Part shown: positions 8,449 through 15,272 of the stretch, one piece after another
Layout: every line of letters starts with the position of its first letter
Position numbering within the stretch: position 1 is the first letter of the stretch
Origin: an uncultured SAR86 cluster bacterium
Lineage (GTDB): Bacteria; Pseudomonadota; Gammaproteobacteria; Magnimaribacterales; Magnimaribacteraceae
DNA length: 58,293 nucleotides
Assembly: GCA_902630715.1 (NCBI GenBank)
Contig: CACOVO010000002.1
Location: 84,603 to 142,895 of the forward strand
Reading direction: 5' to 3'
The notes under the pieces: model-generated
Seen by the model: the letters and a program-made list of their open reading frames with translations, nothing else
Database searches by the model: none
What the model was told of the DNA's origin: nothing
Position numbers and translations under genes: made by a program

Positions 8449-9549
8449 TTAATTTTTGGATGCGACCAAATCTGAGACCGCTTTGCCTTGAATAAAATCT
8501 ACAATAATTTTAGCTAACTCTGGTCCAACTTCCTCTTGTACAAAGTGACCTGCTCCGCCTAGAGTTATGATACTTGGATTGGGAATTCTATTTACAAAAT
8601 CATCTTTCATTCTGATAGTTATTCTTTCTTCACCTCCAAAAGCAATCAAAAAGGGCTTTTCCCATTTTTCGAAGACATTTTTCCAATATTTTTCGTTTTC
8701 CTGGAGCTGTGTGGGAATTAGATAGGGCCAAACATGAGCTCCAGCTTTATATTTTCCAGAAGGAAAAGGAGCCTCATAAGCTTGTTTTTCGCCTTCAGAG
8801 AGTTTTAATCTGCCAAAGTTTTCTATTATGCCGACGATGTCCATATCTTCAGAATAGTAAGAATGTGCTATCCATTTAGTAAACATTGCAATGCCAGCGG
8901 AATCAGAAGGATTTTCTGCATTGAGAGCATCTTGCGCGGATATTTTAAGTTCTTCAAAAGTGATTGGGCCATTCCACCATACTGTTAGCTCCACTAGGCG
9001 TTGAGTAAACCATGCTCGAAGTCCCTCCGCAGCTGGCATACCCGTATTCGATACGACAACTTGAGAAAATCTTTCAGGCATTTCCGCGACTACCCTCAAA
9101 CCAATAAGTCCTCCCCAATCTTGAGCGAAATGCGTTGCATTCTTTAGGTCTAGCTCAGAGACAAGCTCCTTCATAACTTCAATATGATGTTCATAGCTAT
9201 AGTCAAATTTAGAAATGAATTTATCCGATTTACCAAAACCGACCATATCCGGGACAATAACTCTGTATCCTGAATCAGTAAATACAGGTATCATTTTTCT
9301 AAAGAGATAGCTCCAGGCTGGCTCTCCATGGAAGAGTATTATCGGCTCAGCATCTTTAGGTCCTTCATCTAAATAGTGAATTCTCAACCCGTCTATGGTC
9401 ATGTAGTTAGGTTTGAAAGGATAATCTTCAAGATTTTCGAATCTTTCATCTGGAGTCCTTATAACTCCATCTCTGAGTTCGCCAGTTGAGCTAAAAGAAC
9501 TGGTTATGATTAAAGAAAAGAATATTATTGTTCTTACGAATTTATCCAC
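8449..9549 (-). CDS. Haloalkane dehalogenase-like alpha/beta hydrolase, exported
   Basis: A 366-residue alpha/beta hydrolase with features of haloalkane dehalogenase subfamily I: RTPDERFENLEDYPF near the N terminus, HGEPAWSYLFRKM (residues 74-86, Glu76 as possible halide-binding neighbour), nucleophile Asp144 in QDWGGLIGL, and His335 in GGAGHF. An Asp nucleophile followed by Trp separates this group from Ser esterases. Unusually, the protein begins with a hydrophobic signal-like segment (about residues 1-22, VRTIIFFSLIITSSFSS), suggesting periplasmic export. The start is GTG. It follows tolC by 34 bp on the same strand and may be co-transcribed. The true substrate is uncertain, as some relatives are general hydrolases. 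Confidence 0.85.
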   Translation of the reverse strand: MDKFVRTIIFFSLIITSSFSSTGELRDGVIRTPDERFENLEDYPFKPNYMTIDGLRIHYLDEGPKDAEPIILFHGEPAWSYLFRKMIPVFTDSGYRVIVPDMVGFGKSDKFISKFDYSYEHHIEVMKELVSELDLKNATHFAQDWGGLIGLRVVAEMPERFSQVVVSNTGMPAAEGLRAWFTQRLVELTVWWNGPITFEELKISAQDALNAENPSDSAGIAMFTKWIAHSYYSEDMDIVGIIENFGRLKLSEGEKQAYEAPFPSGKYKAGAHVWPYLIPTQLQENEKYWKNVFEKWEKPFLIAFGGEERITIRMKDDFVNRIPNPSIITLGGAGHFVQEEVGPELAKIIVDFIQGKAVSDLVASKN

Positions 9550-11016: not shown

Positions 11017-11499
11017 ATGACAATACAAGTTGGGGACAAAGTACCTTCTATTAACTTATCAATTATGACTGATTCAGGCCCTAAGCCAGTTACTATCAAC
11101 GAGCTCTCTACAGACAAAAAGATAGTTTTGTTTGCAGTTCCAGGGGCATTTACCCCTACCTGCAGCGTCCAACATTTACCTGGGTTTCTTGAAAAAAACA
11201 AAGAACTAAAAGATAAAGGTGTAGATACTATAGCCTGTGTTTCAGTAAATGATCCCTTTGTTATGAAGGCTTGGGGTGAAGACAGAGGTGTGGGAGAAGA
11301 CGTCTTGATGCTATCTGATGGAAATGGAGAATTTACCTCCGCCATTGGACTAGAGATGGATGGAAGCGGATTTGGATTAGGGACGAGATCACAAAGATAT
11401 GCAATGATAATCGATGATGGTGTAGTTTCTGCTCTAAATGTTGAGCCTGGTCCTGGCTTGGACGTCAGTTCCGCAGAAGCAATTCTGGAGCTACTCTGA
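11017..11499 (+). CDS. Peroxiredoxin, Prx5/AhpE-like
   Basis: A 160-residue thiol peroxidase of the Prx5 group reducing H2O2 or organic hydroperoxides. The peroxidatic cysteine is Cys49 in PGAFTPTCS, and a second cysteine at about residue 74 (TIACVSVNDPF) is at the usual non-resolving position. The conserved YAMIIDDGVV strand and the C-terminal SSAEAILELL are present. A strong Shine-Dalgarno (AGGGGAG) precedes the ATG, and TATAAT at 10988-10993 is a good -10 box. It is the first gene of a run in which the P450 starts 2 bp after its stop, so it may protect against peroxide formed by P450 uncoupling (inference). Confidence 0.93.
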   Translation: MTIQVGDKVPSINLSIMTDSGPKPVTINELSTDKKIVLFAVPGAFTPTCSVQHLPGFLEKNKELKDKGVDTIACVSVNDPFVMKAWGEDRGVGEDVLMLSDGNGEFTSAIGLEMDGSGFGLGTRSQRYAMIIDDGVVSALNVEPGPGLDVSSAEAILELL

Positions 11500-11501
11500 T
11501 A

Positions 11502-12740
11502 ATGGCAAAACCAATTTACGATATTGGTCAAATTTGTGAGCTTGATAAATGGGAAACCTTCATAAATGGTCAGCCTTTTGAATTATTTAAGAGGTTAAGA
11601 GAAGAGGCGCCAATCTATTGGCATGAAGAAAGCCTTGATTACGAGCCTGGATTTTGGGCACTTACGAAACATGAAGACATTATCAAGGTATCCAAAGATC
11701 CGATGACTTTTTCATCTGCAGTTGGAGGCCATTTAATGACAATGGGAGATCCTGAAGTCGTAGATCCAAGTGCTGTAGCTGCTATTATTGGAAATATGAT
11801 CGGAATGGATCCCCCAGATCATCAAGTTTACCGAAAAATGGTTGCTCCGAGTTTCACTCCGAAGGCAATAAGAAATCTTGAGGAGGATATGAGGAAGAAA
11901 ATTCAAGAGCTTTTAGAGAATGTGGAAGGGAAAAGTGAATTTAATTTCGTTACCGAAATATCTGAGCAATTACCTTTATGGGTTCTTTGCGAAATGATGG
12001 GAATACCCGAATCTGATAGACCAAAAATAAGGGATTTAGTAAACAATCTTACCGATGCCTCAATTCAACAGGATCCTAACAATGCTTTTCAAATATGGGT
12101 AAATTATATGGAGCTTTTCAAAATGGGAAGAGACATGATTGAGGAAAGAAGAAAAAAACCAACTGAGGATTTAATGAGTGTAGTTGCTAATACACAAGTT
12201 GAAGGAGATGAGTTACCACCAGAACTTTTAGATGGTTTCTTTCTTTTGATGGTAATTGCAGGTAACGAAACGACAAGAAATACTCTAACTGGCGGACTTA
12301 TGGCGTTGACTGAAAATCCTGAAGAAAGAGAAAAGCTCCTCAAAGATCCTTCCTTAATCGCAAATGCTACCGACGAAATGCTTAGATGGGTGACATCAGT
12401 TATTTATTTTAGAAGAACTGCAACTCAAGATACTCAAATAAGAGGCCAGGATATAAAAGCTGGAGATAAGGTTGTTATGTGGTACGGCTCAGGAAATCGA
12501 GATGAAGAGGTATTTCCTGATGGGCATTTATTCAGGGTAGATAGAGAAAATGCACGTAAACATTTAGCTTTTGGTGCAGGCGAACATTTATGCCTTGGAA
12601 ATAGATTAGGCCATATGCAGATAAGAATATTATTTGAAGAACTTTTGGAACGTTATCCTAATATTCATTCGGTTTCAGACCCTATTAGAATTCCTTCTAA
12701 TTTTTTAGCAGGTATATCTGAATTGAAAGTGAGTATATAA
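11502..12740 (+). CDS. Cytochrome P450
   Basis: A 412-residue soluble bacterial P450 monooxygenase, needing ferredoxin and reductase partners that are not in the window. The heme-binding loop FGAGEHLCLGNRLG has the axial Cys364. The I-helix oxygen-activation motif is AGNETTRNTL and the K-helix ExxR is EMLRW. The PERF-like region reads NRDEEVFPDGHLFRVDR. The MIGMDPPDHQVYRKMVAPSFTP stretch near residue 105 is typical of the CYP125/CYP142/CYP124-like lipid and sterol hydroxylase sector, but the CYP family cannot be assigned by eye. It sits 2 bp after the peroxiredoxin and directly abuts the next gene, so the operon is tight. Hydroxylation of a lipid, terpenoid or acyl chain is the likely job. 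Confidence 0.95.
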   Translation: MAKPIYDIGQICELDKWETFINGQPFELFKRLREEAPIYWHEESLDYEPGFWALTKHEDIIKVSKDPMTFSSAVGGHLMTMGDPEVVDPSAVAAIIGNMIGMDPPDHQVYRKMVAPSFTPKAIRNLEEDMRKKIQELLENVEGKSEFNFVTEISEQLPLWVLCEMMGIPESDRPKIRDLVNNLTDASIQQDPNNAFQIWVNYMELFKMGRDMIEERRKKPTEDLMSVVANTQVEGDELPPELLDGFFLLMVIAGNETTRNTLTGGLMALTENPEEREKLLKDPSLIANATDEMLRWVTSVIYFRRTATQDTQIRGQDIKAGDKVVMWYGSGNRDEEVFPDGHLFRVDRENARKHLAFGAGEHLCLGNRLGHMQIRILFEELLERYPNIHSVSDPIRIPSNFLAGISELKVSI

Positions 12741-13829
12741 ATGATTACTAAAGGCGATGATTTTCCAATACATCAAACTTCTTCTCCTATTGCTGAGGTT
12801 GGCTCAGAAAGAAATTTTTATGACAGATATTTCTTTAATGGCTACAACGATGATGGAAGTATTTTTTTCGGAGCTGCATTTTGTGTCTATCCAAACTTGA
12901 ACGTCAAAGATGCTAGCTTTATCTTTGTTTCAGAGGGTATACAGCACAACTTTAGATATTCTGATGTTCTCGACTATGAACGGATGGAAACCTCAGTTGG
13001 CTCTTTCAAGATTGAAATCATAAAACCCCTTAAAGAAATAAGAATCACCCTAAATGATGAAGAAAAAGATATTAATGTTGATATTACTTTTTCAGGGAGA
13101 TTCGAACCCATGGAAGAACCGAGAATGACCTTAAGAAATGGACCTAGGATTTATATGGATTCAACTCGGATGACTCAACATGGTTATTGGACAGGTAATA
13201 TAAATTTTAAAAGTCACAATATAAATTTATCTGAAGAAAATTACTTGGGTACTCGCGATAGGTCATGGGGTATAAGACCTGTAGGAACCCAAGACACTCA
13301 AATTGTTCCTCCCTTAAAATTGCCTCAGTTTTATTGGTTATGGGCACCAGCAAATTTTGATGATGTTTCGTCTCATTTATATTTTGTTGACGATGAAGAG
13401 GGGAGAGCAACCCACAGCCATTGTGTGGAACAGAAAGACAATCAAAGCTCAATTCTGTCGAGCTTAAAAAAAGAAATACATTACTACGAAGGTACAAGAC
13501 GTATATCGAAGGCAAAATTTTCTGCCATGAAAAGAGATAAAACAGAGGTAGTTTGGTCTTTGAAGCCTAAATATCATATCTATATGTGCGGACTGGGTTA
13601 TATGCATCCTGAATGGGGACATGGAATGTATCATGGTGAACAAAAATCTTTTTACGACTCCTATGATCTGAGTGAAGATCCTCATGATCCACCATTTCTC
13701 CACATTCAAGCTATCTGCCACTTTGAAATGAAAGAAAATGACACAACCACAAAGGGTTTGGGCGTTTTAGAACAACTTTTGATAGGACCACACATCCCGA
13801 GCGGATTTGAAAGTTTATTGGATCGGTAA
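12741..13829 (+). CDS. Lipocalin-like (AttH/CrtC-type) protein of unknown function
   Basis: A 362-residue soluble protein whose start immediately follows the P450 stop. It looks like a two-part beta-rich fold. Recognisable pieces are TRMTQHGYWTGNI and LGTRDRSWGIRPVG (about residues 136-185), a motif I associate with AttH/CrtC lipocalin-like proteins and with mycobacterial DUF7064/DUF7065-type proteins near APH kinases. The assignment is from memory and tentative. The sequence is rich in Trp, Tyr and His in the second half (FYWLWAPANFDD; GYMHPEWGHGMYHGE), which could form a hydrophobic ligand pocket. No signal peptide is present. Its tight position between P450 and kinase suggests binding or isomerising their shared lipid-like substrate. 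Confidence 0.8.
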   Translation: MITKGDDFPIHQTSSPIAEVGSERNFYDRYFFNGYNDDGSIFFGAAFCVYPNLNVKDASFIFVSEGIQHNFRYSDVLDYERMETSVGSFKIEIIKPLKEIRITLNDEEKDINVDITFSGRFEPMEEPRMTLRNGPRIYMDSTRMTQHGYWTGNINFKSHNINLSEENYLGTRDRSWGIRPVGTQDTQIVPPLKLPQFYWLWAPANFDDVSSHLYFVDDEEGRATHSHCVEQKDNQSSILSSLKKEIHYYEGTRRISKAKFSAMKRDKTEVVWSLKPKYHIYMCGLGYMHPEWGHGMYHGEQKSFYDSYDLSEDPHDPPFLHIQAICHFEMKENDTTTKGLGVLEQLLIGPHIPSGFESLLDR

Positions 13830-13833
13830 GCAG

Positions 13834-14838
13834 ATGTCGCAGGAGCTATCTTCCTCATTTTTAGATTACTACACAGAATTTTCTGAAAGAGAATATTCTT
13901 TAATTTCCTTCGAAAGAGTTTTTGGTGGAGCAAGCAGAGAAACTTACAAAATACATGTTAAAGACAAATCTGAAAATGAAGAGAAGTTGATTCTGAGAAT
14001 TTCTCAAGATAGCTCGCTAATAGACACAGATCAGAAAACTGAATATTTGGCTTATTCTGCTTTTCAGGATTCAAAAGTGCCTGTTCCAGTCATGATTGAT
14101 ATGTCAGAAGAAGACAACAAATTAGGAGCTTCGTTCATGCTCATGAGGGAGCTTAAGGGAGAGGCAGCTACTCCTTTCACACCTGATGTATATTCTCCTC
14201 ATGAAGAGGAACTGGGTAATCAGTTTTGGTCCATTTTAGGGAATATTGCAAAGCATGAAATTAATGATGAAATTTTTGAAAACTTCTCGAAAGAAACAAA
14301 AAAACCTTTTTGGAAAAATGAGTTGGATAAGTGGAATAAAGTTATTCATGAGGACTCAATAGGAGTTGAACCAATTTTAGAAGCTGGAATAAGGTATTTA
14401 TATAAAAATCCTCCGAGAGAAAAAGACTTCGTATCAATGGTTCACGGAGATTATAGAAGTGGGAATTTCCTTTATTTAGATAATAAGATTACCGGCATTC
14501 TTGATTGGGAGATGGCTCATTTAGGAGATCCCTTAGAAGATTTAGGCTGGGCTTTGTCCCCCATATGGAGTTGGCAAGACAAAGATCGTCCTGCTTACTT
14601 GGTAAAACGAGAGGACGCACTCACAATATGGAAAGACAGTAGCGGTATAGAAATAAACGAAAGTGATTTGGAATGGTGGGAGTTATTTGCGGCTGTAAAA
14701 GGAATGGCGATTTGGATTTCTGCTGGGCATGAATTCAAATCAGGTAAAAACACTGATCCTATTAACTTATTCTCAGCTTGGATTCCTGGAGATATTCATT
14801 TAGAAATCATTTTAGATATTTTAGAAAAGAATATATGA
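13834..14838 (+). CDS. APH-family phosphotransferase (LvaA/ACAD10-kinase-like)
   Basis: A 334-residue kinase of the aminoglycoside phosphotransferase/choline kinase fold. The catalytic loop HGDYRSGN is at residues 204-211 (Asp206, Asn211) and the metal-binding DWE at 224-226. The N-terminal VFGGASRETYKI and LILRIS resemble the glycine loop and ATP-binding Lys/Arg strand. The HGDYRSGNFL...ILDWEMAHLGDP form belongs to the acyl-CoA-linked kinases (ACAD10/11 kinase domain, LvaA), not to antibiotic-resistance APHs. I chose the ATG 4 bp after the previous stop; a TTG 27 bp upstream would overlap the previous gene. The 3' end overlaps the next ORF by ATGA. The likely substrate is a hydroxylated acyl-CoA or related alcohol (inference). 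Confidence 0.88.
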   Translation: MSQELSSSFLDYYTEFSEREYSLISFERVFGGASRETYKIHVKDKSENEEKLILRISQDSSLIDTDQKTEYLAYSAFQDSKVPVPVMIDMSEEDNKLGASFMLMRELKGEAATPFTPDVYSPHEEELGNQFWSILGNIAKHEINDEIFENFSKETKKPFWKNELDKWNKVIHEDSIGVEPILEAGIRYLYKNPPREKDFVSMVHGDYRSGNFLYLDNKITGILDWEMAHLGDPLEDLGWALSPIWSWQDKDRPAYLVKREDALTIWKDSSGIEINESDLEWWELFAAVKGMAIWISAGHEFKSGKNTDPINLFSAWIPGDIHLEIILDILEKNI

Positions 14839-15272
14839 AACCAGATATAAACATAGCTCTTCTCAATGCAGCACAAGAAATAATAAATCGGTTTAGTCCT
14901 CTTATTGAAGACGAGTATGAGAGATCTCGTCTTGGATCTTGGGGCGCCTTGATTCTAATATCTGCAATGAAATTAAATGATGCCAGCTCATCTCTCAGGA
15001 AGGAAAATATGGATATAGTTGATTGGTTAAATAAATATTCAAATATTGATGAAAAAGATCTCGATACGCTTTCATCCTTTAATGGAAAGAGCCTAGACCA
15101 ATATGATGAGGACAATCAAAAACTAAGAGCTTTGTTAAATTCAGAAATAGAAAAATTAGAGATGCTTCATGATAAAGATTCGCTCAAGCAGAGTATTAAT
15201 TTGATGAGGTCTATGCATAAAAGAAGAAGTGTTAGTGACCTTATTGGTCTCTTACAACAATCTGAAAACTAG
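14835..15272 (+). CDS. Small helical protein, LvaB/DUF6285-like
   Basis: A 145-residue, mostly helical and acidic protein coupled to the kinase by an ATGA overlap (ATG 14835; a longer TTG start inside the kinase is less likely). The N-terminal half, INIALLNAAQEIINRF followed by a helix with ILISAMKLNDA, resembles the small partner of the 4-hydroxyacyl-CoA kinase LvaA, called LvaB (DUF6285). This is by memory and should be tested. In the lva system LvaB stimulates the kinase, so a partner role is a fair guess. The C-terminal half (EIEKLEMLHDKDSLKQSI) could form a short coiled coil and makes it longer than LvaB. It is the last gene of the operon. Confidence 0.72.
   Translation: MKPDINIALLNAAQEIINRFSPLIEDEYERSRLGSWGALILISAMKLNDASSSLRKENMDIVDWLNKYSNIDEKDLDTLSSFNGKSLDQYDEDNQKLRALLNSEIEKLEMLHDKDSLKQSINLMRSMHKRRSVSDLIGLLQQSEN

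Follow-up and report, generated by a model that had tools for sequence, protein, structure and literature searches.

In Sterolibacterium denitrificans, the kinase 25-HSK transfers a phosphate to a tertiary alcohol at C25, after which a lyase yields the alkene, as described in the available sections of two reports (PMC8449060, PMC11061730). According to the same sections of the first, 25-HSK is monomeric and no lyase candidate lies near its gene (PMC8449060); the structures of 25-phosphosteroid lyase (25-PSL) are later than that report. Elsewhere, Rv3169, after which the protein family NF053593 is named, forms an operon with Rv3168 (PMC5340868).

Here we describe a five-gene operon in a window of 58,293 nucleotides (the whole stretch of DNA analysed; contig CACOVO010000002.1, positions 84,603 to 142,895) from an uncultured SAR86 cluster bacterium, whose assembly measures 1.26 Mb and is 64% complete. 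SAR86 is an abundant lineage of the surface ocean. Based on sequence comparisons, we propose, with a probability of about 0.62, that the operon would couple a cytochrome P450 to the dehydration, at the expense of ATP, of a hindered alcohol, most likely a tertiary one, on a hydrophobic molecule of isoprenoid type. The novelty would lie in the P450-coupled form of the kinase-lyase cascade, in a new partner family and in the marine lineage that carries them. The five genes are the following:

11017..11499, + strand: peroxiredoxin (Redoxin family), 160 amino acids (aa), Pfam Redoxin 7.1e-40; first gene of the unit
11502..12740, + strand: cytochrome P450, 412 aa, Pfam p450 7.9e-30
12741..13829, + strand: Rv3169-family protein, candidate phosphate lyase, 362 aa, NF053593 351.9 bits (cut-off 150)
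13834..14838, + strand: APH-fold small-molecule kinase, 334 aa from ATG, Pfam APH 3.9e-28
14835..15272, + strand: small all-helical protein, 145 aa from ATG, no named family

The candidate lyase and its relatives

A preliminary description of this DNA had taken the protein encoded at 12741..13829 for a lipocalin-like lipid holder. We found it to be a homologue of 25-phosphosteroid lyase instead, with a profile score over the cut-off and the relevant aspartate kept. No Pfam family scored over its cut-off, and the family recognized was NCBIfam Rv3169_fam (NF053593, score listed above). The PDB matches at E<=1 comprised only two sequences, both named 25-phosphosteroid lyase (9fzn/9g2i/9g4c) and presumably originating from S. 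denitrificans; the match reached 4.6e-43 by sequence and 2.3e-68 with a 15-row profile. Over the aligned stretch, 9g4c differs from the other deposited lyase sequence by D176N, inside the motif RDRSWG, and D173 of the window lyase aligns with D176 of the solved one. We then considered a set of 99 loci, composed of the best 80 of 574 confirmed matches (21 of them from the SAR86 family) and 19 loci from further genomes. In 97 of these, the best lyase contains RDRSWG; the exceptions are L173, which has an ambiguous residue at the motif, and L134, a divergent member without it. Among the best 80 of the 574 matches, the closest copies with names belong to SAR86 cluster bacteria (80% identity). Overall, sequence and position designate this gene, adjoining that of the kinase, as the one likely to encode the eliminating enzyme.

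The Rv3169 family has a second, weak homologue, at about 17-30 bits and below the cut-off, in 21/28 SAR86-family genomes, including the window's own (contig C1:129768-130070). It is perhaps an AttH-type relative.

Outside the operon's own family, 78 of the 99 loci are left. In 62 of them, an APH kinase is found no more than 2.5 kb from the lyase, at a density of 0.17 per kb against 0.0014 farther out, a contrast somewhat inflated because those neighbours supplied part of the kinase profile. The small gene is found within the same distance in 29 loci (0.078 per kb, against 0 farther out), its profile too having been trained partly on these loci. For P450s the densities are 0.022 and 0.003 per kb, two being located farther than 2.5 kb from the lyase. 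In all three cases the loci are mutually related and do not count as independent events.

The gene context of two relatives suggests side-chain degradation via CoA esters. On a Rhodococcus plasmid (L228) we observed, in a row, genes for an AMP-binding protein, a P450, a thiolase/OB-fold fusion that is ChsH2-like, a lyase, a phosphotransferase, a 177-aa protein and an aldehyde dehydrogenase, together with an ACAD; the P450 is 27% identical to that of the window, the lyase 39% identical to 25-PSL, and the 177-aa protein gave no match to the small-protein family. In L128, ChsH2-like and thiolase-like genes follow. Other plasmids show further arrangements. L229 and L230, both from Rhodococcus, carry lyase-kinase pairs near phosphoenolpyruvate-utilising/PPDK-like and tyrosine-phosphatase genes, and a Variovorax SRS16 plasmid (L231, 5417-9602) carries a kinase, a 180-aa gene, a lyase, a kinase and a 156-aa gene in a row, that is, one lyase between two kinases, each with a small unnamed gene behind it. 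The lyase is also present in Desulfobacteraceae/Desulfobacteria (L174, L182, L188 and L214), accompanied in L174 and L214 by a kinase of the operon's clade. Since these bacteria are presumably anaerobes, the lyase-kinase part probably does not depend on oxygen.

The kinase, its small partner and the conservation of the operon

The spacings between the five genes, previously given as +2, 0, +4 and -4 bp, proved exact when re-read from the open reading frames (ORFs), and the motifs HGDYRSGN and DWE are both present in the kinase. The gene order is well conserved: all five genes were found in the same order and on the same strand in 27 of 29 SAR86-family loci, and the two incomplete loci are at contig ends, L055 ending in the kinase and L061 in the P450. 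Successive genes are separated by -11 to +17 bp wherever both are present, with start codons chosen by script. The peroxiredoxin gene is directly 5' of the P450 gene in 28/28 loci reaching that far (29 examined); its role is probably protective or incidental. By genome, the lyase gene was found in 32/35 members of the family, the small gene in 27/28 (and in 0/73 other genomes of the order) and the operon-type P450 (at least 71% identity, full length) in 26/28. One genome (G028) has a P450 match of 261 residues at 92% and lacks the small gene, and another (G015) has no P450 match and a lyase match that starts at base 1 of its contig.

Judged by its sequence, the window kinase has intact catalytic residues, H204, G205, D206, N211 and D224 being invariant in 14/14 aligned SAR86-family kinases. 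Its PDB matches include 9fsg, which may or may not be 25-HSK, and 3ats, which we take to be Rv3168, presumably itself an APH-type protein. In a tree of 84 kinases, which leaves out L213 (kinase too short) and 16 loci without a detected kinase, the window kinase belongs to one clade of 51 (support 99/99). Of these 51 kinases, 49 have the small gene at their locus, against zero among the 32 grouped kinases that fall outside the clade; for the other two members (L153 and L174), the contig ends inside the kinase. This co-occurrence bears out the earlier idea that the small gene goes with the kinase, and the tracking of a single kinase clade is good evidence that the small protein is a dedicated partner of that clade.

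In the window, L203 and L181, the small gene and the end of the kinase gene share 4 bp. The small protein has no Pfam match and no NCBIfam match above cut-off, and the family is present in SAR86, Alphaproteobacteria, Pseudomonadales and Desulfobacteria; a search of the plasmids with the Parvibaculum copy as query returned no match. The AlphaFold model of the window protein shows five helices (predicted local distance difference test score, pLDDT, 85.5), and its structural matches were generic only.

The lyase tree groups the operon-family lyases (22 rows) and 17 other SAR86-type loci (L157-L173; mostly SAR86, one PS1 and one OCS116) in one clade (100/100). Despite this, their kinases fall in different clades: L157-L173 have a second kinase clade (16 kinases, none being detected in L172), which comes with no small partner. 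One lyase clade served by two kinase clades suggests that the lyase needs some kinase and that the kinases are exchangeable, as would be expected if the job were fixed and the kinase replaceable.

Proposed reaction and alternative explanations

Building on the established gene identities, operon conservation, pairing of kinase clade with small gene and common motif residues, we infer a reaction, an order of steps and a role for the small protein. The APH kinase, together with its dedicated small partner, would phosphorylate the alcohol, and the Rv3169-family protein would then eliminate the phosphate, with D173 as key residue, leaving an alkene. The P450 could act at either end of this sequence: it may install the hydroxyl group first, an order that we slightly favour, or it may afterwards hydroxylate a methyl group that the new double bond has rendered allylic.

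The best solved match of the window P450 is CYP125MRCA (8vxi, 334 bits), followed by CYP153 (8b2p, 262), CYP126 (5li6, 261) and CYP124 (245), while other CYP125 chains score 224-237 bits, below the latter three. Copies in other SAR86-family operons are 71-92% identical to it. Outside the operon's family, 8/78 loci have a P450 at most 2.5 kb from the lyase, and seven of these P450s are CYP108-like: those of Parvibaculum (L181, L203, L204 and L205), Rhodobiaceae (L212) and two alphaproteobacteria (L128 and L131). The L203 P450 has P450terp (CYP108) as its best solved match (462 bits), and the other locus P450s of this type are 57-96% identical to it. In the Parvibaculum and Rhodobiaceae loci, a P450 unlike that of the window is upstream of the lyase; in L128 and L131, a relative of the L203 P450 (57 and 61%) stands beside the kinase and small gene, and the lyase is divergent. 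In the Halieaceae locus L189, the gene directly 5' of the lyase encodes a P450 sharing 39.7% identity with that of the window; the kinase of this locus belongs to another clade, and the small gene is absent. An additional P450 in L127 is 3.4 kb from the lyase, inside a long stop-to-stop frame, and is outside the 2.5-kb count. The substrate of P450terp, alpha-terpineol, is itself a tertiary alcohol, so that for the CYP108-like group the order in which the P450 does not make the alcohol would fit.

Regarding the substrate, we searched for KshA_C, a marker of steroid-ring breakdown, and found it in 2/28 SAR86-family genomes and 10/101 genomes of the order. It was found neither in the window's own genome (64% complete) nor in G030, a single contig that is 95% complete and has the whole operon. 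This rarity, together with G030, indicates that steroid-ring degradation is no condition for the operon and that molecules other than steroids could be its substrate, a sterol side chain alone being another possibility. HsaD was also tried as a sterol marker and dropped, as 100/101 genomes matched as generic alpha/beta hydrolases and none over the cut-off. A testosterone/cholate pathway was reported in 3/3 SAR86 drafts in the available part of one study (PMC4810484); the KshA counts (10/101) do not show it as general in the SAR86 order.

Several observations weigh against the proposed dehydration. The activities of all these proteins are predicted, and the window lyase is only 32% identical (331 columns) to the solved lyase and distant from it in the tree, so its substrate or even its reaction could differ. 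Set against 25-HSK/25-PSL, the lyase passes the sequence tests, and the kinase is a putative counterpart of 25-HSK. No kinase was detected within 2.5 kb of the lyase in 16/78 loci (one of them, L212, at a contig end) and no P450 in 70/78, and in L054 (genome G008), counted among the 27 complete loci, the small gene is split into two pieces. Furthermore, enzymes of the CYP125/CYP124 type normally add their hydroxyl to terminal methyls, which calls for no dehydration, and the five-gene operon contains neither a redox partner nor a downstream oxidation gene.

A more specific version of the proposal is possible, if short of even odds: the operon may be to aerobes what the sterol side-chain cascade is to anaerobes. 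A P450 would replace the molybdenum hydroxylase and make the tertiary alcohol, a two-subunit kinase with a new obligate partner would phosphorylate it and the Rv3169-family lyase would complete the reaction, the module having been assembled repeatedly with different P450s in SAR86, Parvibaculum-type alphaproteobacteria, Halieaceae and Rhodococcus. If this were the case, the breakage of branched isoprenoid chains by ATP-driven dehydration would be widespread among aerobes.

The same kinase-lyase chemistry might instead serve biosynthesis or the tailoring of membrane lipids, for example of an unsaturated isoprenoid. We consider this doubtful, although it has several points in its favour. The lyase and small-gene counts given above make the unit core to the SAR86 family, and it is directly followed by ParE and ParC (identified by eye). 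The scanned window neighbours (amidase, nicotinamide mononucleotide transporter, TonB receptor, Fpg and others) do not make up a degradation set, and the presence of KshA_C in only 2/28 family genomes leaves sterol-ring breakdown unlinked to the operon. On the other hand, the relatives L228 and L128 sit among degradative-looking genes. The scanned neighbours are silent on the substrate of the operon. As a separate observation, the window encodes at 8449-9549 (- strand) a haloalkane-dehalogenase-family protein (325.7 bits against an NCBIfam cut-off of 265), with an N-terminal extension that by eye is signal-peptide-like.

It is improbable that the Rv3169-family protein is no enzyme and acts as a lipid carrier or as a chaperone for the P450 product. 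The fold of this family is lipocalin/AttH-like and no activity is known for this lyase branch, but against this stand the conservation, in 97/99 loci, of RDRSWG with the very aspartate altered in 9g4c, and the pairing of the lyase gene with kinases of several clades.

Even less probable is the model drawn from the lva system, in which LvaA works with LvaB, a DUF6285 protein. According to this model, which the preliminary description had put forward, the kinase and an LvaB-like small protein act on a hydroxyacyl-CoA, an LvaC-like enzyme at 1515-2732 eliminates the phosphate and the lipocalin-like protein holds the lipid. The kinase profile does match the ACAD11 kinase domain (6.5e-14), and the protein at 1515-2732 does belong to an ACAD11-like family (395 bits against ACAD11 and 418.6 bits against 4hr3), with GDGPDEVH near its C-terminus and 37% identity to the ACAD of the own genome's Lva-like set. 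However, nothing was seen that ties this gene to the operon: it is 8.3 kb upstream, with other genes between, some on the opposite strand, and none of the ORFs scanned beside it is a kinase gene. Moreover, with a candidate eliminating enzyme inside the operon, it is not needed.

The small protein, for its part, showed no relation to LvaB/DUF6285 at the sequence level, by Pfam or by hhalign, an outcome that the preliminary description had itself named as refuting its proposal. DUF6285 gave no Pfam match at E<=1 in the window protein and none at E<=10 in four relatives, and hhalign of 41 small-family against 27 DUF6285 sequences returned a probability of 0.8-1.1%. A repeat of hhalign that used an iterated set, together with three small proteins encoded next to plasmid kinases as possible bridges, brought no support for DUF6285, the top probability in that series being 4.9%, for the small family against the three plasmid neighbours. 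A "helix, P, helix" likeness between the small proteins, DUF6285 and the plasmid neighbours was noticed by eye only, and we discarded it as no measurement backs it. In addition, the genome has a separate set of ACAD, APH kinase and DUF6285 genes (contig C4, L062 6560-9120), with kinase and DUF6285 genes overlapping by 1 bp, and DUF6285 occurs in 48/101 genomes of the order. The LvaA-like kinase of that set falls outside the operon's 51-kinase clade, as judged from a single reference row on a long branch. As far as the sequences tell, the general idea of hydroxylation, phosphorylation and elimination survives as the best reading, with the gene order conserved, whereas its Lva framing gains no support and its parts list was wrong.

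Finally, a detoxification unit, with the P450 and an antibiotic-type phosphotransferase modifying a toxic compound, is barely credible. In its favour are the match to 3ats and a weak resemblance of the kinase to the NCBIfam APH(3') and Mph resistance models (36.9 and 26.8 bits); against it, these scores are far below the cut-offs of 205 and 500, the lyase gene adjoins that of the kinase, and the unit is conserved among marine bacteria with small genomes.

Comparison with known systems

Our literature search returned nothing joining AttH with a phosphotransferase and a cytochrome P450. If the proposed dehydration is correct, one SAR86 family carries, as core genes, an ATP-spending route from a hindered alcohol to an alkene, so far described, in the literature that we found, for anaerobic sterol degradation. 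Other lyase-kinase pairs, Rv3168-Rv3169 among them, would gain a function open to testing, and a clade of APH kinases a new family of small partners.

The best solved matches of the window P450 are CYP125, CYP153, CYP126 and CYP124, and we know of none of these that works with a kinase. The lva operon and ACAD10-ACAD11 share with the window operon an APH-type phosphorylation followed by phosphate elimination, as outlined in the available parts of the sources (PMC11342911, PMC12440821). Nevertheless, their eliminating enzyme is an ACAD, a type absent from the window operon, and their substrates are hydroxyacyl-CoAs, unlike those we propose here. For the Rv3168-Rv3169 operon, the accessible portion of the report names neither a P450 nor a small partner (PMC5340868), in contrast to the window operon.

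The closest described counterpart is the 25-HSK/25-PSL cascade, which has in common with the window operon an ATP-dependent kinase, a phosphate lyase and the aspartate in RDRSWG. The two differ in the hydroxylase, since S. denitrificans uses oxygen-independent molybdenum enzymes, as far as the available text describes them, and the window operon has a P450. They also differ in their organization: in S. denitrificans, according to the same partial sources, the kinase is monomeric and its gene has no lyase candidate nearby, whereas in the window the kinase, the candidate lyase and the putative small partner are encoded together in one operon.

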